The notes under the pieces were generated by a model, which worked only from the letters and a program-made list of their open reading frames with translations, made no database searches and was not told the origin of the DNA. Source: a beta proteobacterium AAP65 (GTDB taxonomy: Bacteria > Pseudomonadota > Gammaproteobacteria > Burkholderiales > Burkholderiaceae_C). Taken from it: a stretch of DNA of 64,000 nt. The DNA lies in the NCBI GenBank assembly GCA_001295865.1, contig LJHW01000020.1:124001-188000 (forward strand). The letters run 5' to 3'. Positions 1-8,110 of the stretch are shown here, piece after piece. Both the position numbers and the translations under genes were made by a program. Position 1 is the first letter of the stretch; the number at the start of each line of letters is the position of its first letter.

Positions 1-2
1 GT

Positions 3-67
3 TGGCTTGCCCTGTTTGCTCGTGACCTGACCAACTCCGTCGGTCGGCTGATGCTCAACTTTATGTG
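3..67 (+). CDS. 3' end of an unidentified gene
   Basis: The first bases carry an open frame that ends at a TGA 7 bases before the next ATG; its last residues read LTNSVGRLMLNFM. The tight spacing to the following nuclease-like gene suggests both belong to one transcript. Too little remains to name a family, and the frame could be chance. Confidence 0.35.
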
Positions 68-74
68 AGGCGGC

Positions 75-731
75 ATGAGCAAGAAACTGCTGCTCGTTGA
101 CCTCGAGAACAAGCATAAGGTAGACCTCTCACCATTGGATCAGAGCTACAGGGCCGTCATCTTCGTGGGGGCAAATCAGAACCCTCCCAAGGCTTCCAGG
201 AAGCCTTCTACGGCCCATAGGTTCAGTCGGGTGGACTTCCTGAAGATTTCTGGGGCCGGCAAGAACGCCCTGGACTTCCACATAGCCTTTGAGCTTGGCC
301 GCACCTTTGAGACGGCCCCCGACACGCAGTGCTTCGTTCTGAGCGGCGATAAGGGATTTGATCCGCTGCTGAACCACCTCAATAGCAGCGGCATGCATTG
401 CCGCAGGATAGAGAGCATTGAAGAACTCGTGCTTGTCGCTGGGGTGCCAGCCCTGGATTTGGTGGTCTGCCGGCACTGCAAAAAGGCCAGCACGATTGAG
501 CACCATGGAGGCCGGTGGTGCAGCAACTGCGGACGGTTCGCCACACCGCCTGATCCCCAGCTCTTGCCCTCCAATCGGCCTGGCTTCGTTGAACCTGAGA
601 AGGCCTGGGAAGACGATGGTGGAATCATTGCCGAATGCGGCTGGTGCCACCAGAAGGCCGACATGACGGGTGGCATCTATGACGACGGGGAGTGGATGTG
701 TGGGCACTGCGTTGCCCGCTACGCAACGTAG
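75..731 (+). CDS. NYN/PIN-like nuclease domain protein with two zinc ribbons
   Basis: 218 residues. The N-terminal half looks like a NYN/PIN-fold RNase domain: the first strand LLLVDLEN has Asp9 and Glu11, AGKNALDFHIAFELGR supplies Asp67, and the strand FVLSGDKGFD supplies Asp92 and Asp96, the usual acidic metal-binding set. The C-terminal half has two CxxC...CxxC zinc ribbons (Cys132/135/149/152 and Cys188/191/209/212). In PIN/NYN families these acidic residues coordinate divalent metal for RNA cleavage; zinc ribbons often bind nucleic acid or protein. A GAGG Shine-Dalgarno lies just before the ATG, and the preceding frame ends 7 bases upstream. The nuclease role is inferred from motifs; the biological target is unknown. 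A defence or RNA-processing role on a mobile island is possible. Confidence 0.7.
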   Translation: MSKKLLLVDLENKHKVDLSPLDQSYRAVIFVGANQNPPKASRKPSTAHRFSRVDFLKISGAGKNALDFHIAFELGRTFETAPDTQCFVLSGDKGFDPLLNHLNSSGMHCRRIESIEELVLVAGVPALDLVVCRHCKKASTIEHHGGRWCSNCGRFATPPDPQLLPSNRPGFVEPEKAWEDDGGIIAECGWCHQKADMTGGIYDDGEWMCGHCVARYAT

Positions 732-990
732 AAATGGGTCGGGATCGGCCTGCGGTCAATGGCCGCTTTCCGAACGACCAAAGACTGCAACGGGGCGAGG
801 CCGTGTGAAAACTCGGTCTTGTCCCGGTCGCGCGCATAGTCGACCGTCCAGATCGGTCCAGGATCGACGATTGGCATCGCGGAAGGGGTTCGATAACCCC
901 GAAAGTTTCGCGTTTGCCGAGTTTTCCCACGCCCTCGGTCGTGAACGGGCCCTCGACTTGCTACTCGACAGCAGACACCCAGGGTCACCG
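732..990. other. gene-free stretch between convergent genes
   Basis: No supported gene here. Open frames on both strands lack ribosome-binding sites and recognisable protein character. A small hairpin GGGGTTCGATAACCCC sits at 885-900, without a T-run. The style (AATGGCCGCTTTCC, then GTGTGAAAACTCG) resembles intergenic repeat sequence scattered in betaproteobacterial genomes, but no second copy occurs in this window. Confidence 0.4.
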
Positions 991-1332
991 TTATCGATGC
1001 CGCTTGGACGCGTGCGCGGTAAGCATTGATCCTCGGTATCGCACTGCGCACTCGTCAACATAGCAGATGTACTCCGCGACAATCTGGCGGAGCAGATGCC
1101 CTCGACTGGTAGCTGCGTCTTCGGTGATCAGATCGAAACGTTCTAGCAACTCTGCTGGAATGCGAAACGTGACAACACGGCTCGTCGCCGACCGTTGGCG
1201 TCGCTCTTCTGCTTCTGCGTACTGGAAAGCATCACGAATTGCTTTTGCTTGCTGCCGCAGAACGTGTGCAGCATCGCTCGCCCCTTTATCTGGTGCTTGG
1301 TCGCTTTCTGGTGGATACATGATGATGGACAT
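991..1332 (-). CDS. ribbon-helix-helix (CopG/Arc-type) DNA-binding protein
   Basis: 113 residues. After a charged, alanine-rich N-terminal segment, residues about 52-90 form the pattern of an RHH fold: the strand RVVTFRIPAEL followed by two helices (LLERFDLITEDA and GHLLRQIVAEYI). Such proteins dimerise through the strand and bind direct or inverted repeats as repressors of toxin-antitoxin, plasmid copy or transfer operons. No toxin gene sits next to it. The start has a GAAGGGAA ribosome-binding site. A direct repeat just upstream is a candidate autoregulatory site. The fold is fairly clear; the target is inferred. Confidence 0.65.
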   Translation of the reverse strand: MSIIMYPPESDQAPDKGASDAAHVLRQQAKAIRDAFQYAEAEERRQRSATSRVVTFRIPAELLERFDLITEDAATSRGHLLRQIVAEYICYVDECAVRYRGSMLTAHASKRHR

Positions 1333-1363
1333 GCGGCGTTCCCTTCAGTTGGTTGATTCCGCC

Positions 1364-1379
1364 GTATTTAGAAGTATTT
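1364..1379. promoter_or_regulatory. direct repeat, candidate RHH operator
   Basis: GTATTT-AGAA-GTATTT: two identical hexamers with a 10-bp period, 32 bases before the start codon of the ribbon-helix-helix gene. Ten-base-pair spacing places both half-sites on one helix face, as RHH dimers prefer. Autoregulation is inferred from position and family habit. Confidence 0.35.
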
Positions 1380-1472
1380 CGCTGAATGCCTGCAGACCAG
1401 GTTGATTTTGAATCTCGACACACGCAGAGCCTTGACGAAAGCTCACGCATGTTGTTCAAGTTTGATTGTTGA

Positions 1473-1518
1473 CACATGGATAAGAGTATTAGATTTCCAT
1501 GTGTATGTTTTCAAACAT
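1473..1518. promoter_or_regulatory. AT-rich region with two palindromes
   Basis: CACATGGA (1473-1480) is mirrored by TCCATGTG (1496-1503) across 15 AT-rich bases. Immediately after comes the palindrome ATGTTT-TC-AAACAT (1505-1518). A TTGACA-like hexamer overlaps the first arm. The arrangement suits regulator binding or an origin-like function, but no protein partner can be named. Confidence 0.35.
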
Positions 1519-1526
1519 GCTGAGTA

Positions 1527-1735
1527 GGGCGAGCTTGCCTCGCCCGTAACCCGCCGAAGGCGGAAGTAGTAGGCGGGACTGGCGCGTAGCGACAGGCACG
1601 GCTCCGTGCCGCCAGGCACGGTACTCGTTGACCCGCAATGCAGCGTTGTGAACGTGCGCATCAGCTACCCGGCTTGCGCCGGGAGGCGGTGCCTGTCGCT
1701 GCGCGCCAGTCCCGCCTACTTCCCCTTCGGGGGCG
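1527..1735. repeat. long inverted repeat with nested hairpins
   Basis: A 28-base arm starting GGCGGGACTGG at 1572-1599 recurs in inverted orientation at 1689-1716 with one mismatch, and the symmetry continues imperfectly outward (1551-1733). The 89-base interior and flanks hold further hairpins: GGGCGAG-CTTGC-CTCGCCC at about 1527-1545, GGCACG-GCTC-CGTGCC, and CCCGGC-TTGC-GCCGGG. Its GC content is well above that of the surrounding island DNA. It could be a BIME/REP-type or MITE-like element, an origin, or a structured RNA locus. No supported gene overlaps it. Confidence 0.6.
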
Positions 1736-1864
1736 AATGCGCGGCGGGGCCGCTCTAATGGCTATGCGTCCTTGGCAAGCATGGTATCTGTACCGCAAGT
1801 GCAAATTTTCTAACCCGCACGATTGATTAATCTAAATAGCCAATCTCAATCAGAGGTTGGATCA

Positions 1865-2356
1865 ATGAACGTATCAGAGCCAAAGGCACCATCCAAGCGC
1901 GGCGGCGCTCGTACAGGTGCGGGTCGCAAGAAGATCGATCCGCAAGCCAGAAACGAAATGCTTATCGACGAGTTGATCTTTCCAGCGGTTTGCGCTGCTT
2001 TCCACTCAGCGCCTGGGCAATGGAGAGAGCGACTTCTGTCGTTCGAGTTGAGCGGTGTTCAGATTCGAGAAGCCTACGGACACGAGGGATTGCGCGAGTG
2101 GAAGTCTTACTTCACTGCGATCAGAAAGGGCGGGTGCACACGTAGCCGCGTGGGTTATCAGACGCTCTGGAGATTCAACATCGCAAAGTACGGATTCATC
2201 CTGAAGCTTGTTGAAAATCTCGGGCACACCATCAAGGATCTTCCCAATCCGGGTTTCCCACCGCAGAAGATGCTTGACCGTCTTAAGGCCCTCGACGCAC
2301 GGCGTACGGCGAAGAAGAAGGCGGCAGTCGCAGTCGCAGTCGCTGCACGAATCTAA
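1865..2356 (+). CDS. hypothetical protein with basic N-terminal GAR motif
   Basis: 163 residues from the ATG at 1865, chosen because a GAGG ribosome-binding site sits before it; an in-frame TTG at 1823 would add 14 unlikely residues. The start region reads KRGGARTGAGRKK, the Arg/Gly-rich signature found at the N-terminus of many phage and plasmid proteins (for example terminase small subunit-like and other DNA-binding proteins). The middle is mixed alpha-helical with aromatic residues, and the tail is an Ala/Lys/Val run encoded by a repetitive GCAGTC tract. No specific family is recognised. The basic ends suggest nucleic-acid binding; that is inference. Confidence 0.6.
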   Translation: MNVSEPKAPSKRGGARTGAGRKKIDPQARNEMLIDELIFPAVCAAFHSAPGQWRERLLSFELSGVQIREAYGHEGLREWKSYFTAIRKGGCTRSRVGYQTLWRFNIAKYGFILKLVENLGHTIKDLPNPGFPPQKMLDRLKALDARRTAKKKAAVAVAVAARI

Positions 2357-2406
2357 GCGGCATTACCCCGAAACGACGCGTAACGCTCAACCTGAAAATC
2401 GGCCGC

Positions 2407-2443
2407 TTGATAGTATTTCCATATCGCGCAATACCGCGCGATA
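2407..2443 (+). promoter_or_regulatory. promoter with inverted-repeat operator over the -10
   Basis: A -35-like TTGATA (2407-2412) is followed after exactly 17 bases by AATACC (2430-2435). That -10-like hexamer lies precisely between the arms of a perfect inverted repeat, TATCGCGC (2422-2429) and GCGCGATA (2436-2443). A dimeric regulator bound there would block RNA polymerase. It would drive the two small genes beginning at 2461. The -10 matches consensus only weakly, so promoter activity is inferred. Confidence 0.45.
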
Positions 2444-2460
2444 GCAAACGGAGAATCCTG

Positions 2461-2649
2461 ATGGCAACCGCTCAAACCTCGAAGACCGTCGAACCCGCAG
2501 CCGCTCCGAAGGCGAAGCGTCAGCCCACCTCGATGGTGGACCGCATGAAGGCGCAACTCAGCGCTGCAGCGTTTAAGGCCAAGGTCACGGCCGACGAACT
2601 GACCGTGCTGGAAACACACGTTGCGAAGCTGAAGTCGCTGCTGTCGTGA
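2461..2649 (+). CDS. small Ala/Lys-rich hypothetical protein
   Basis: 62 residues. The N-terminus is Ala/Pro/Lys-rich and disordered-looking (AAAPKAKRQP); the rest is predicted to be a helix with regular hydrophobic spacing ending VAKLKSLLS. A GGAG ribosome-binding site stands 8 bases before the ATG. Its stop overlaps the start of the next gene as GTGA, so the two are translationally coupled. No family is recognised; the basic character would fit a small DNA-binding or accessory protein. Confidence 0.55.
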   Translation: MATAQTSKTVEPAAAPKAKRQPTSMVDRMKAQLSAAAFKAKVTADELTVLETHVAKLKSLLS

Positions 2650-2945
2650 CCAACCTTGACCCGGCCAAGTTTGGTATGGGTCAGGTCGTCAGCACGCTTC
2701 AAGCACTTCACTTCTGCCGTAAGCACCGCATCGACATCTCCACCTTGTTGGTGCGCCACGCTTCAGGAGACTGGGGCGACATTACTACGGCCGACAAATG
2801 CGTCAACGATGCGGCGGTGCTGGACGGCAGGCGCATTCTGTCGGCATATAGCTTCTCTGCTGGCAGGGTGTGGGTGTTGACTGAGGCGACAGGTGAGAAC
2901 GGCGTTCGCGCTTCGACCTGCATCATGCTACCGAGCGACTACTAG
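2646..2945 (+). CDS. small hypothetical protein, coupled to the preceding gene
   Basis: 99 residues from a GTG start that overlaps the previous stop by four bases. The protein has no signal peptide or transmembrane segment and no motif I can assign. An intrinsic terminator lies 85 bases after the stop, closing a two-gene transcript that begins at the operator-bearing promoter near 2407. Coupling and terminator are the main evidence that it is real. Confidence 0.55.
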   Translation: MTNLDPAKFGMGQVVSTLQALHFCRKHRIDISTLLVRHASGDWGDITTADKCVNDAAVLDGRRILSAYSFSAGRVWVLTEATGENGVRASTCIMLPSDY

Positions 2946-3029
2946 GCAGCAGCCAGCCCGGACGCGGGCAAAATAAGGGCATTTCTGCCGAGACTTTGCA
3001 GCCCAACAATTTGGAAGTCGGCACAGCTC

Positions 3030-3052
3030 AGAGACCTTCGGGTCTCTTTTTT
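3030..3052 (+). terminator. intrinsic terminator
   Basis: AGAGACC-TTCG-GGTCTCT followed by a run of T: a perfect 7-bp stem on a UUCG tetraloop, downstream of the gene ending at 2945. Confidence 0.85.
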
Positions 3053-3210
3053 GCTTGTGCCTAACTGTCCATCTTTCAATGCAATGATGATACGGTGCCG
3101 TGCCTTGCGCAAGTAGCGGACTAACTGGCCGGCGACATCCAGACTTGAATACAAGGTACCTTTCACCCGGACCGAACCGGTGTCACCGGCGTCGCCTGGG
3201 TGGCCCGCAG

Positions 3211-5295
3211 CTACAGCAGGTGCTTGTATACGACGTTATTTCGGTTCAGCCAGTCGATGTACATCGTCCGCTGCTTTTCCGGAAGATTGAACCCAATGGG
3301 CATGCCGCCCTTTGCGCTCATGCCAAAGTTGCGCGCGTTCGTCAGCAATTCCGACAGTCTGCGTTCCATCGCTGTCATGGGACCATGCAGGGTGAGGGTT
3401 TGTTGCGGCGGATTGTGAAAGCTCCAGGGCGTTGGCACATACCTTAATAGGTCGCTATGCACGAGACGCCTCGCATACATCGGGTCAATCAAGACGACGC
3501 ACGGCTTGCCAGCAAAGCGGAATCCCTGGTTTCTTCCAATCGCTTGGTTGGCTAGATCGGCCAGCAGAATGGTGTTCAGAGCCTGCGGGTTCTCGCTCGC
3601 CGGAAACTGCGCCCATAGGTTCAATGCTACTGACGGGTTCGGCACCGACAGCTTGACGATGGTGCTGTGCTCGGCGAGGTCGTTGCGGCCCTTGTTGTTC
3701 ATCAAGTTCAGGTCGCAGCCGAGGCCGTCGGCGATGAAGGCTACGTCGGTAAACTCTTCCTTTAGCTTTTCCGCAATCAGCACCAGCAGAATGTGGTTGC
3801 CCTTGCGGACGAGCCGCGTGCTTAGCAAAGTTACGTGGCAATTTGGATCTGGCTTGGCGCGCAACACACCTTTAGCTGCATACAACGCTCCGCACTCAGG
3901 CGCCCACTTCATCGTGGTGTTCAAAGTCCGAAAAGCGAGCTTAGCCGTGATGTGCTCGGTTGTCGTTACCAGAATCTTTGGGGCAAAACCATCCTTTTGC
4001 CTGAACCCACGTTGTAGTCCATAGCCCAGCCAGCTTGTCGCTGGGCGTTCTTCAAACTGCTTATTTTGAAATGATGCGACTTGATGCTCGTAGGCTTTCT
4101 GCGTCCACTCTGCGGCAATCCGCTTCGCCAGCAGCGGAGGGTAGCCCTGCTTTTCCCAATGAGAAGTGAGCACCCAGTCTTGCTGGTATTTTGGCAATGC
4201 CCTTTCCTTGCGATAGACCGCCTCCAAGTCCTTGTCTTCAATTAGTCGGCGGAAGTCGAAATCCGTGCGATCAGGGTCATCGATGATGACGACGATTCCC
4301 GGTAGCCCAAGCTCCACGCCCACCAAAGGCAATCCCTGGGCGTCGGCTTTTGGTGTTGGGTCTGACGACGGGATGACGTTTGGAAGAAATCTTGTTCCTG
4401 GCGGTGGCGCGCTATCGTCGTCATGCCACCTGTGCTTATGTTGAATCCGCTTTTCACCTTTGAGAAGTCCAAGCGCGTGCCACCACGGCCGGTGCCGCGC
4501 GGTGCAGTACGCCTTGAACGCGGTGAGCGTCATCAACACCACGTCCGTATGCAAGCCCGCCACCGGCGGCGACTTGTATTGGGTGTACAGCTTGTCGAAA
4601 GTTTCGTGAACTTTGTCCGTTGGGTATCCGGCCGCGTCAAGCGCCTTTCGCAGAGCTTGCCGCGTGCTGGGCTCGTCAAGCTGTGCTGCCGAGTATGGCG
4701 ACCTAGGCTCGTGGTAGACGGGCCTCAAGTCCACGCCGATGCTGGCAAGCTGCTCTTGCAGGTGACGTGCTTTGGATCGATGCCGGTGGATGCGCAGGTT
4801 AGGCCACCGCTCCCGAAACCCTCGCTCCTGCTCGACAAGCTGATCGTTGGTCTTCGAGCAAAAGACCACCGTGAATCCACGTTCCACAAGCTCGCCGACG
4901 ATGGATGACTTGCCGGCGCCCTCGCGGGCCTGCCAGACGAAGTGATGCATCGGCCACGGGTACGGCCATTTGCCGTTGCTTTTGACGGGAGGGCTGGCCT
5001 TCGTCGTCCTCTCGATGAACTTTGCTTTCCTGACCGCGTGATGGCGCGCGGCGTTGCGATCAACCGTCTGAAAGTTGGCGCTGCGCCCCTTGCCCTTGTT
5101 TGCTTGGATGTGCTCGTCAACCTCAGCGCGGAATTTTTCGTGGTACTCGTCGGCCCAGCGTGCCGTGACCTCGCCCAGAGTGCCCGCTGTCCGGTTCGCC
5201 AGATCGACAATGTGCGACCCGCCGTCCACGCCCTCCAAGAACTTGAACTCAGGCTCCAGCCCTAAGAGGTACCGCGCAAGTGGGCTATCGCTCAC
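3211..5295 (-). CDS. large P-loop, superfamily 2 helicase-like protein
   Basis: 694 residues. After a charged N-terminal segment there is a Walker A motif AREGAGKSS at 123-131 followed by a strand VVFCSKTNDQL like helicase motif Ia. A Walker B-like strand IVVIIDDPD lies at 334-342, and QAIGRNQGFR at about 584-593 resembles motif VI (QxxGRxxR) of SF2 helicases. The order and spacing fit a two-domain ATPase acting on nucleic acid, but the Walker B is atypical and the protein is divergent. It is the largest gene of the island and points toward the terminator-bounded small genes. A replicative, packaging or defence role are all possible. I cannot assign a named family. Confidence 0.6.
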   Translation of the reverse strand: MSDSPLARYLLGLEPEFKFLEGVDGGSHIVDLANRTAGTLGEVTARWADEYHEKFRAEVDEHIQANKGKGRSANFQTVDRNAARHHAVRKAKFIERTTKASPPVKSNGKWPYPWPMHHFVWQAREGAGKSSIVGELVERGFTVVFCSKTNDQLVEQERGFRERWPNLRIHRHRSKARHLQEQLASIGVDLRPVYHEPRSPYSAAQLDEPSTRQALRKALDAAGYPTDKVHETFDKLYTQYKSPPVAGLHTDVVLMTLTAFKAYCTARHRPWWHALGLLKGEKRIQHKHRWHDDDSAPPPGTRFLPNVIPSSDPTPKADAQGLPLVGVELGLPGIVVIIDDPDRTDFDFRRLIEDKDLEAVYRKERALPKYQQDWVLTSHWEKQGYPPLLAKRIAAEWTQKAYEHQVASFQNKQFEERPATSWLGYGLQRGFRQKDGFAPKILVTTTEHITAKLAFRTLNTTMKWAPECGALYAAKGVLRAKPDPNCHVTLLSTRLVRKGNHILLVLIAEKLKEEFTDVAFIADGLGCDLNLMNNKGRNDLAEHSTIVKLSVPNPSVALNLWAQFPASENPQALNTILLADLANQAIGRNQGFRFAGKPCVVLIDPMYARRLVHSDLLRYVPTPWSFHNPPQQTLTLHGPMTAMERRLSELLTNARNFGMSAKGGMPIGFNLPEKQRTMYIDWLNRNNVVYKHLL

Positions 5296-5311
5296 GGCTT
5301 ACGCTCCCAAC

Positions 5312-5602
5312 ATGGGTGATCCGCGGGTGCGCAGACGCATCAACGCCGTGATCGACTGGGTGCTGCCCTACGTGGCGCAGGGCACAGGGCCTTACGAGTG
5401 GTCCGCGAAAAACCTGCGCAAGGTTTTCGGGAACACGAGCAACAACGCGTTGTCGCGGTGGCTGATGGCGAACGTGCTTCAACAGACAGGGTTCTATCGA
5501 GTCGGCGAGTTTCCCTATGCCTACCTGATTCGTCCTGAAGGCATCGAGAAGATGCTCGCACTGCTGCAAGAAGCCGATCAACAGAAAAGCGCCCGTTTGT
5601 GA
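5312..5602 (+). CDS. small winged-helix-like hypothetical protein
   Basis: 96 residues from the ATG at 5312, only 16 bases from the start of the divergent helicase-like gene, so the two promoters must overlap the reading frames. The start RVRRRINAVIDWVLPY is basic; NLRKVFGNTSNNALSRWLM looks like a helix-turn-helix, and the C-terminus resembles a wing plus helix. It may be a small DNA-binding partner or regulator of the helicase gene. No family is recognised. Confidence 0.5.
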   Translation: MGDPRVRRRINAVIDWVLPYVAQGTGPYEWSAKNLRKVFGNTSNNALSRWLMANVLQQTGFYRVGEFPYAYLIRPEGIEKMLALLQEADQQKSARL

Positions 5603-5644
5603 CACGCTGAAAGCAGCCACAATATATGATGTACAGAAGTTGGC

Positions 5645-5672
5645 CAAAAAATGGCCAACCCGAAGGTTGGCC
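5645..5672 (-). terminator. intrinsic terminator of the four-gene operon
   Basis: Read on the minus strand: GGCCAACC-TTCG-GGTTGGCC, then A and a run of six T. A perfect 8-bp stem with a stable tetraloop, 9 bases after the stop of the gene at 5682-5873. Confidence 0.9.
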
Positions 5673-5681
5673 CGGTCTTCC

Positions 5682-5873
5682 TTAGGCGAGGCCTTCTCGC
5701 CTCAGCAATTCCATCGCTGCCCGATAGACAGCATCGTGGACTTCCTGACCATCGCTGTGCGGTGGGACTTCGAAGCCTGGCTCCATCAGGAGGGCCACCA
5801 CGTCGGCCCAGTTGATGCTGTAGCGGCGTTGCAGGTCATTTCGAGCTTCACGCTCAATGTGTGCGGGGATCAT
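5682..5873 (-). CDS. small hypothetical protein, last gene of the island operon
   Basis: 63 residues beginning MIPAHIEREARND; a mostly helical, charged protein with WADVVALLMEPGFEVP in the middle and a helical end AAMELLRREGLA. It follows the preceding gene by 42 bases that contain a strong hairpin (5889-5910) and is followed directly by an intrinsic terminator. No known family is recognised. Operon position is the best support. Confidence 0.55.
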   Translation of the reverse strand: MIPAHIEREARNDLQRRYSINWADVVALLMEPGFEVPPHSDGQEVHDAVYRAAMELLRREGLA

Positions 5874-5888
5874 GAGTGCTCCGGTGCG

Positions 5889-5910
5889 GAGCCGGCCCGG
5901 AGGCCGGCTC
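5889..5910 (-). other. intercistronic hairpin
   Basis: GAGCCGGCC-CGGA-GGCCGGCTC: a perfect 9-bp stem with a 4-base loop and no T-run, between the third and fourth genes of the operon. It may stabilise upstream mRNA or reduce expression of the last gene. Confidence 0.6.
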
Positions 5911-5915
5911 GTTCC

Positions 5916-6107
5916 TCAGGTTCCGTCGAACGGGGTCCAGTCGAAATCCTCGACCACGTTCACGCACACAGTTCCCCTCGGCCCTTGGACGACGTTGTCC
6001 GTGCCGAAGATGTCCCGCATGTCGCTCTGCAGATCCTCGAGCGTGAGTCCTGCAGCAAGCAGTTCCGTTCCATCGACTGTGAAGGTCACGGTATTGAAGT
6101 ACTTCAC
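5916..6107 (-). CDS. small hypothetical protein, translationally coupled
   Basis: 63 residues from a GTG that overlaps the stop of the preceding gene (GTGA). The sequence starts VKYFNTVTFTVDGTELLAAG and ends in the acidic-aromatic tail VVEDFDWTPFDGT. The beginning resembles the strand pattern of the operon's first protein (TTVTFNVITDD), so the two may share a fold. No family is recognised. Confidence 0.55.
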   Translation of the reverse strand: MKYFNTVTFTVDGTELLAAGLTLEDLQSDMRDIFGTDNVVQGPRGTVCVNVVEDFDWTPFDGT

Positions 6108-6568
6108 TCTTCGCCCCCGTTGCTTGGACCCCAGCTTTGCCTGACCTCCTCGACGTATGCCGTGGCTGTGCGCACCTTCTGTGGCTTTGGCGTCGTGACG
6201 AGCATGTCGTCGAGCATGTTGCCTTCGGCGGCGATGATGCACTTCGCGATCAACTCGCAGGCCGCATCGGCATCCGGCACGTAGAAATAGGTCTTGCCCG
6301 GGACAATCTCAAGCGCGGAGGCGCCGGACTTGAACGTGACCCGGTAGCCCTTCGACACCTTCTCTGTCCAGGCGGTGCAGAGGTTTCCGAACTTGTTCAG
6401 ATTGCCCTCGCCCGCTCGGATCTTGTCGATCTGACCCTTGCCCGTCTGGATGAAGTTGTATCGCGCCTTGTCAAGCAAGTCATGGAAGGTTGGGCGCTTG
6501 TCCTTGGTCAGCGTGCCGCCCTCAATGCTGGACAGTTCGGCCAAAAACCGAGATTGGTTCGCGCTCAT
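6104..6568 (-). CDS. hypothetical protein, second gene of the island operon
   Basis: 154 residues from the ATG at 6568, which overlaps the stop of the upstream gene (ATGA); a longer in-frame start would run into that gene. An N-terminal helical part (FLAELSSIEGGTLTKDK, HDLLDKARYNFIQTG) is followed by a beta-rich segment (GYRVTFKSGASALEIVPG, TYFYVPDADAACELIAKCI) and a charged tail. No catalytic motif, signal peptide or membrane segment is seen, and I do not recognise the family. Coupling to both neighbours suggests equal-ratio production of a complex. Confidence 0.6.
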   Translation of the reverse strand: MSANQSRFLAELSSIEGGTLTKDKRPTFHDLLDKARYNFIQTGKGQIDKIRAGEGNLNKFGNLCTAWTEKVSKGYRVTFKSGASALEIVPGKTYFYVPDADAACELIAKCIIAAEGNMLDDMLVTTPKPQKVRTATAYVEEVRQSWGPSNGGEE

Positions 6569-6810
6569 GCCGTGCCTCCCATCTTGTGGCTGCACTCCAT
6601 CCACTGCGCGGTCGTCAGCAACTTAAACAGCGTGCTGCCGACGAATTCGTGCAGGTCCTGGGGCTGATCGATGTCGATCGTGGTGGCAGCGTTCCCGTGC
6701 TCACCGTAGTTGACATCGACAATCAGGTACTGCGCCCCGTTGTCGTCGTCAGTGATCACGTTGAACGTGACCGTTGTCGGCTTCTTGCCGACCATCGTGG
6801 GCATCGTCAT
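6565..6810 (-). CDS. hypothetical protein, first gene of the island operon
   Basis: 81 residues from the ATG at 6810, chosen for an AAGGAG ribosome-binding site nine bases upstream. It looks beta-rich and acidic (TTVTFNVITDDDNGAQYLIV, TTIDIDQPQDLHEF). Two Met residues stand at 1 and 3. Its stop overlaps the next start. It lies 301 bases inside the island edge that disrupts comEC. No family is recognised. Confidence 0.55.
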   Translation of the reverse strand: MTMPTMVGKKPTTVTFNVITDDDNGAQYLIVDVNYGEHGNAATTIDIDQPQDLHEFVGSTLFKLLTTAQWMECSHKMGGTA

Positions 6811-7023
6811 GATGCTGAGCTCCTTGGCCAGTGGCCATGTGCTCTGCCTCGACGGAAAAGTTGGGTAGATGCCAAGGCAGGGCGGTTGACGCCTGAACAA
6901 CCGTGTCGCTGCCTTCTCGGCTATCGAGCGTCATTGACGCGCGGGCGGTGGTTGATCTCGGGCCAAGCGGAAGCGGCCCTTGCCCTGCCTCGGGCTGCCA
7001 CGTATAGGTACGGGCTGCTGTGG

Positions 7024-7053
7024 ACTTTAATCGATCTAAGTGGTTGTCGTCAA
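7024..7053 (-). promoter_or_regulatory. candidate promoter of the four-gene island operon
   Basis: On the minus strand TTGACG is followed after 18 bases by TAAAGT. It would give a leader of about 200 bases before the ATG at 6810. Readthrough from comEC is also possible. The leader (6811-7020) shows no gene on the plus strand; on the minus strand it is crossed by the run-on comEC frame. Confidence 0.35.
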
Positions 7054-7110
7054 ACCGCTTTTGCCCTTCATCTGATACATTTGTTACAGCAAAAACTAAA
7101 GTATCGATTA
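7026..7110. repeat. island end with inverted TAATCGAT repeats
   Basis: The octamer TAATCGAT occurs at 7028-7035 followed by CTAAG, and in inverted orientation at the very edge (7096-7110, read on the minus strand as TAATCGATACTTTAG). This AT-rich DNA contrasts sharply with comEC, which begins at 7112. The pair may be recombinase or transposase sites at the element end. The other end is outside the window, so target duplication cannot be checked. Confidence 0.4.
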
Positions 7111-7111
7111 C

Positions 7112-7981
7112 GCCTGAGATCGACATCAGGTGGGCCACGCCCGTGAGGCGGAAGACCTCCCAATCCTCGCGCGCGATGGCGGCCTGGTCGCCGATCAACA
7201 AGGCCGCCAGCACATCGGCCGCAGCGCCCTCGCCGACCTGGCGCTGCAGCGCGTCGCGCAACGCTTGGCGTGCGCGCTGCACGGGGGCGCCGGCCTTGCC
7301 GTCCAGCTTCTCGGGTGGGCTCTCGGGCCGCGCCCGGACGTAGCCGCTGGCGCCCAGGCCGCGCTCGAACATCCACAGCTCCAGGTCGAAGCCGTGCGGG
7401 TTCATCGCGCCGTGCGGCTGGCGCAGGCGCAGCGTGAAGCGCCAGCGCTGGCCGGCGCGCAGCGGCTCTTCGGGGCCGGCGAGCAGGCTGTCTTCGTCGA
7501 AGCCGCGGTACCAGCCGAGCGACAAACGTTCGGGCACACGCACCGGCGCGCCGCGCAGCGTGGCGGCCTCGGGCTCGAAGACGAAGCGTGTGCCCTGCAG
7601 GCTGTGGCGCGGCAAGTCGGAGATGAGGCCGGTGACCTGCAGGTCCACCCCCTCCAGCGCGGCGGGCAGGCGGTCCAGCAGCTTCAGGTGCGCGCGTGCC
7701 GCGGTGCTGCCGTAGCCCAGCGTGGCCGCGGCCAAGAGCAGCAGCGCCAGCAGCGCCCACCGCACCCCGGCGCGATCGCCCGGCGCGGCCCAGCTGCGCC
7801 AGCCCCACAGCACCGCCCAGCCCAACACCGTTGCCAGCCCGGCGGCCCCGGCCAGGGCTGCGAGCCCGGGCAAGGCGGCTTCTTGCAACTGCAGCAGCGC
7901 CCCGCCCAACAGGCCCCAGGCCAGCGCCGCAGCCGGGGCCGCCCAGCCGCGTGGGGCGGTGGCGACAGGCCGGGTTTGCAT
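7112..7981 (-). pseudogene. comEC: comEC, N-terminal fragment cut by island insertion
   Basis: ComEC/Rec2 is the inner-membrane channel that carries single-stranded DNA into the cytoplasm during natural transformation; intact proteins have about 750-850 residues. Here 290 native residues remain: N-terminal hydrophobic helices, an OB-fold-like DUF4131 region, and the start of the competence domain, ending in GVAHLMSISG. The family motif normally continues with Leu-His; here it switches to Val-Ile-Asp and unrelated low-GC codons. The frame then runs on for about 120 foreign codons to a stop at 6749-6751. The product should be non-functional as a channel. The missing C-terminal part may lie left of the window, beyond the island. 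Confidence 0.85.
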
Positions 7982-8110
7982 GCGGGCCAGTGTAGGATTC
8001 CGCCGCCTCGCACAGGCCCCCCAGAGGGGCTCCCTCTCGCGTTGGCACCCTCACCCGCAGCCCCGCACGGCGGCACGCAGCACACCCCTTTTTCCCCGCC
8101 GGAGACCCGC

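Follow-up and report, generated by a model that had tools for sequence, protein, structure and literature searches.

The window analysed here, a stretch of 64,000 nucleotides that corresponds to bases 124001-188000 of contig C13 (G000:C13, 198,817 bp) in a 95-contig draft assembly, raises the question of what interrupts the competence gene comEC, by which mechanism the interruption came about, and why this gene is involved. The N-terminal part of comEC is an open frame on the minus strand (7115..7981, with the ATG at 7981) that matches PF13567 (DUF4131) with 97 bits, positions 1-32 of PF03772 and, partially, TIGR00361 and NF008580. The frame is normal through VAHLMSISG and departs from the family consensus within the Gly codon that closes the HLMSISG motif. 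The sequence-only reading had placed the break directly after HLMSISG, within one codon, and the break is confirmed; the core of the junction (7113-7114) is the right-hand end of the interval then given. The rest of the gene, sought to the left, was found 22.4 kb away on the same contig (G000:C13:107936-108676, minus strand), where it matches positions 30-266 of PF03772, the Competence domain, and is followed by the metallo-beta-lactamase domain. A PF03772 search of the genome gave two matches, both of them pieces of the split gene, and no second comEC.

The insert between the two parts measures 22,436 bp (C13:108677-131112) and its GC content is mostly 0.54-0.61, against about 0.70 outside; within the window the value is 0.60 at 6001-7000 and 0.71 at 7001-8000. 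In the sense of comEC, the N-side junction reads ATGTCGATCTCAGG followed by the element, and the C-side junction reads the element followed by GGGCTGCACGTGACG. Comparison of both junctions leaves in common the dinucleotide GG of the comEC Gly codon (7113..7114, minus strand, CC on the plus strand, marking the right-hand crossover point, and C13:108675-108676), a core deduced from these two junctions. The shared stretch is 2 bp, and neither a longer target duplication nor a long direct repeat was found at the junctions. A 22-kb mobile island is integrated at one exact spot of comEC. Both pieces of the gene are still open reading frames, in keeping with an insertion that is recent or might be reversed.

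At the far end of the island, 30 nt from the core, starts the gene of a large serine recombinase (LSR) of 512 aa (C13:108707-110245, plus strand; L005:4707-6245, plus strand). The protein matches PF00239 (Resolvase, 67.5 bits), PF07508 (Recombinase, 44.3 bits) and PF13408 (Zn ribbon, 42.4 bits), all above the Pfam cut-off, and, at 243 bits, a PHROG integrase family. In 27 aligned relatives the serine at residue 12, which we take to be catalytic, is invariant. The protein has the features of a serine integrase, with the three domains, a length of 512 aa where roughly 450-700 are expected, and a 2-bp identical core. The attP lies beside the integrase gene and has related half-sites, as judged by a fixed-register comparison of the right element arm beside the core (7089..7112, minus strand), one half of attP, with the left arms of the island and of two related elements described below. 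The right arm is identical to the left arm of L010 at 15/24 positions (shuffle p 3e-4), to that of L149 at 12/24 (shuffle p 0.02) and to the island's own left arm at 11/24 (shuffle p 0.04), the symmetry of the island's own two arms being weak. The left arms of the three relatives match one another at 18, 18 and 16 of 24 positions; the shuffle p is below 1 in 20,000 for two of the comparisons and 2e-4 for the third, and common descent alone may account for part of the agreement. Dyad symmetry of the joined ends about the GG was also considered as proof of the core and set aside, since it is weak (11/20, p 0.015) and other centres score equally well.

Two junctions with a common GG and an LSR at the far end indicate an island integrated by an LSR. 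In the proposed mechanism, an attP beside the LSR gene would recombine in a single crossover with an attB in comEC made of the conserved codons H-L-M-S-I-S-G-L-H, the GG of the Gly codon serving as the crossover dinucleotide, and the island would thereby be integrated; precise excision, helped by a putative directionality factor, would restore comEC. That this complete-looking LSR integrated the island into comEC by a GG crossover is the best explanation of the whole, and we consider it very probable; the enzyme at work was presumably the one that the island itself encodes.

A search with the LSR protein (8000 candidates scored, 595 homologues) gave, among the 120 homologues listed, 36 sequences with 45-100% identity (P0001-P0036, the query counted and two of them partial), the next standing at 37%. 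In a FastTree phylogeny of 34 close-family LSRs and selected other LSRs, these 34 group together in a single clade (support 0.998) that contains none of the others. The same GG in comEC is found beside all three close-family LSRs whose flanks are readable, namely the island's own, that of Variovorax sp. Sphag1AA (L010, 62% identity), where the comEC C-part begins at the core, and that of the genus-mate G955 (L149, 66% identity), whose 5,367-bp contig ends inside the element; in both relatives the readable junction is the C-side one. A further locus (L141, genome G840) has a 300-base stretch in common with L010 and was counted as the same strain. The proposal that a site-specific element uses a conserved coding motif of comEC as its target is borne out by the LSR at the island end, where an integrase had been looked for, and by these related elements at the same codon.

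The L010 island (L010:5946-8103) is a remnant, with little beyond an open integrase gene, and the N-side of comEC next to it is deleted to about residue 240.

The close family is sparse. It was detected in 1/399 genomes of the family (E 1e-60) and in 2/81 of the genus, the own genome counted in both, and in 1/101 genomes of the genus of G350; it was not found among 15 genomes of the genus around G466, nor among 21 genomes of the genus around G409 in a search without a positive control. Among the best 80 matches in IMG/VR all were distant, with at most 41% best-segment identity, and no close relative was found. The target is strongly conserved: of 30 comEC loci in the GTDB family, 29 have the motif, the one miss being the C-part of the split gene itself (L130), and the GG occurs in 29/29 motif-bearing copies, with many flanking positions invariant. 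In the five genus-mates examined the motif is uninterrupted (5/5), although one of these, G719, which also contributes a locus (L111) to the 29, has comEC broken further upstream by another insert.

The G719 insert (G719:C22, L140:4298-11355) splits comEC near codon 259 of the reference, roughly 20 codons ahead of the island site. It is a different insert, 7 kb long and of lower GC, with JetD-like, ThsA/SIR2-like and GGACT genes; no LSR was seen in it, and its ends have, by eye, apparent inverted repeats with CATC on both sides.

More distant LSRs adjoin comEC in 1/11 loci of the order search (L014/L023, genome G273), in 0/8 loci of the genus searches and in 1/80 IMG/VR loci (L105), counts that may miss comEC neighbours, since some of these loci end near the LSR. 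The comEC copies at these two loci are both broken at codon 277 of the reference (L025), 3 codons ahead of the island site. In G273 only the N-side of comEC is seen, the C-part not being found on that contig. The loci L105 and L158 lie at opposite ends of a single viral contig of 42,314 bp, a phage thus bracketed by both comEC halves, which have TCG in common at the break. The G273 and L105 LSRs fall outside the close family and apart from each other in the FastTree phylogeny, and a search with the L105 LSR matched only itself.

Scanning viral contigs with a single comEC sequence confirmed nothing, and a scan with a comEC alignment gave seven loci (L152-L158). Two of these (L153, L154) carry essentially the whole comEC. 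In three inovirus-like IMG/VR contigs (L152, L155, L156) comEC breaks at codons 281-285. They encode Zot-domain and replication proteins, both typical of inoviruses. A Resolvase-domain protein adjoins comEC in L152 and L155, and L156 has a similar C-terminal sequence beside comEC and comEC pieces at both ends. The pattern that picked out these contigs overlaps the motif, and their clustering is therefore partly a matter of ascertainment; the three LSR lineages at comEC, for their part, were found via the integrase and not via a comEC pattern. With the small serine recombinase of L152 as query, 57 viral loci were returned; comEC clearly adjoins 1/57, on the contig of L152 itself, so that this recombinase group as a whole is not specific for comEC. 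All in all, a comEC site within codons 277-285 appears to be common to unrelated elements.

Some other contigs touch on this subject. In four IMG/VR loci (L216, L218, L222, L224) a common coding sequence comes after relatives of the L152 recombinase; on our reading it resembles the start of hrcA, which suggests another fixed target of this recombinase group. A 40.5-kb viral contig (IMGVR_UViG_3300031825_000036; L157/L165) has comEC pieces at its ends that meet at about codon 330, which is not the same site. The record of the Pseudomonas phage vB_PaeS_AV002 (PQ349087.1, L161) has at its end a short ComEC-like stretch (54% identity, reference residues 551-607), which may belong to the host, at a site of integration, or be a gene of the phage.

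Why should comEC be the target? With the same LSR mechanism, the gene could be merely a convenient piece of conserved DNA whose role in uptake is irrelevant, and we regard this as evenly poised between right and wrong. The site is strongly conserved at the DNA level (GG in 29/29, with many flanking positions), and distantly related LSRs are known to use common conserved target sites (PMC10083194). However, the same source describes LSR targets as strongly enriched in DNA competence genes (PMC10083194); three LSR lineages and the inovirus-like contigs break comEC within codons 277-285; and in a genus-mate comEC is broken elsewhere by a different insert with defence genes. A tentative proposal, which we hold to be possible and somewhat doubtful, is that codons 277-285 of comEC (HLMSISGLHVTM) are a convergent hot spot, reached independently by at least three LSR lineages and by inovirus-like phages with small serine recombinases, where switching off uptake would make the element safe from transformational removal, and precise excision could restore uptake.

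The LSR is not the only recombinase of the island, whose right-hand 7.1 kb lie in the window (1..7112) and which continues outside it to C13:108677. In the window it encodes a PIN7-domain protein of 218 aa (75..731, plus strand; PF18475, 69 bits), a ribbon-helix-helix protein of 113 aa that is a possible regulator (991..1332, minus strand; PF01402, 25.5 bits, with a weak CopG-like PHROG match), and four ORFs lacking family matches, of 177 aa (1823..2356, plus strand), 694 aa (3211..5295, minus strand, the largest of the four, unmatched in Pfam, PADLOC, NCBIfam and PHROGs), 166 aa (6104..6604, minus strand) and, near the right end, 111 aa (6565..6900, minus strand). The type I restriction-modification proteins HsdR, HsdM and HsdS are encoded at L005:6772-12521, followed by a SIR2-domain protein (PADLOC ThsA, 70.5 bits), a NucS-domain protein (PADLOC candidate PDC-S11, 533 bits), a 447-aa ORF with no assignment and a partial tyrosine recombinase of 217 aa (L005:16489-17142); a 647-aa GHKL-ATPase-domain protein matches a restriction-enzyme family far below the cut-off (81.9 vs 550). 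By resemblance, the restriction-modification, SIR2 and nuclease genes of the cargo are probable phage-defence genes. No structural phage genes were found among 10 island proteins compared with PHROGs or 17 compared with Pfam, and the PHROG matches among the 10 are limited to the two recombinases and, weakly, the ribbon-helix-helix protein.

That the tyrosine recombinase moved the island, with the LSR as a passenger, is very unlikely, even though it matches Phage_integrase (95.7 bits) and PHROG integrases: it sits mid-island, with about 10 kb or more on each side, its alignment to XerC/XerD-type models is confined to their C-terminal part, no long direct repeat is present at the junctions, and the comEC junction in L010 and L149 is marked by the LSR, not by this gene. 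A Tn7-like transposon directed to comEC via TniQ/TnsD, which the sequence-only reading had entertained, is highly improbable. Tn7-like islands do target conserved genes, including comM in Acinetobacter (PMC11472951), but Tns/TniQ families are absent among the 17 island proteins covered by Pfam scans (8 + 9, some small ORFs lying outside the set), the target duplication that was looked for comes down to a common core of 2 bp, against a multi-base (5-bp) duplication, and an LSR sits at the island end. An assembly chimera, for which the draft state of the genome in 95 contigs might speak, is barely credible, since one 198.8-kb contig spans both junctions and holds both comEC halves, the same C-side junction recurs in two independent assemblies (L010, L149), and the expected 2-bp core is present.

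The LSR-integrated island has known counterparts. Serine recombinases that integrate at a dinucleotide site in comEC are likewise found in the streptococcal prophages Phi1207.3/Tn1207.3, Phi10394.4, phi29854 and the S. suis phage phi-SsuSH0918_comEC, and GA is the dinucleotide of Phi1207.3 (PMC4260502). In contrast to the island, with its break at reference codon 280 and its one LSR, these prophages affect about the last 195 codons and have two adjacent recombinase genes; what is annotated as left of comEC amounts to the last 594 bp in the phi29854 record and to 582 bp in the S. suis phage, so that the 3' end is used and not codon 280. The streptococcal elements are moreover phage genomes, some with macrolide resistance. 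Membership of the island in the Phi1207.3-type group, which requires 3'-end insertion and two recombinases, was therefore rejected. LSR elements in comK, comM-type and other genes likewise place an LSR in a conserved competence gene. In the consulted part of one article, mobile elements are listed in comK, comYC, comFA and comM, and comEC is not among the disrupted genes there (PMC4774983); comEC also has 0 occurrences in the main text of another article, to which the count is limited (PMC10083194). In Acinetobacter baumannii, islands with defence systems (CBASS, Zorya) likewise interrupt a competence gene, which is a different one (comM); the AbaR islands there are Tn7-like and lack an LSR (PMC11472951). 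In Piscirickettsia salmonis, comEC is likewise interrupted by mobile elements, which are, however, various and at non-identical positions, with erosion, whereas the island family here uses one codon; the same article describes the disruption of comEC by mobile elements as rare, the known cases being limited to streptococcal isolates (PMC12955456). Transposons in comEC are mentioned, too, in a further source (PMC12637031). Serine-recombinase prophages in comEC are already known from streptococci; an LSR island at the comEC HLMSISG motif was not found in the titles and abstract openings listed from the open-licence literature.

ComEC is the DNA channel, and an Acinetobacter comEC deletion strain is non-transformable (PMC11472951). 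Since the only comEC found in the genome is split, ComEC function and DNA uptake would plausibly be lost for as long as the island stays there. It is debated whether selection on mobile elements favours the disabling of transformation (PMC4774983, PMC12637031). The integrase, together with its attP and attB, is a potential genetic tool. An LSR island family, a tailed-phage-sized contig with an unrelated LSR, a third LSR lineage and inovirus-like contigs all break one short comEC motif, and these separate cases are a natural set for testing the transformation-disabling idea.
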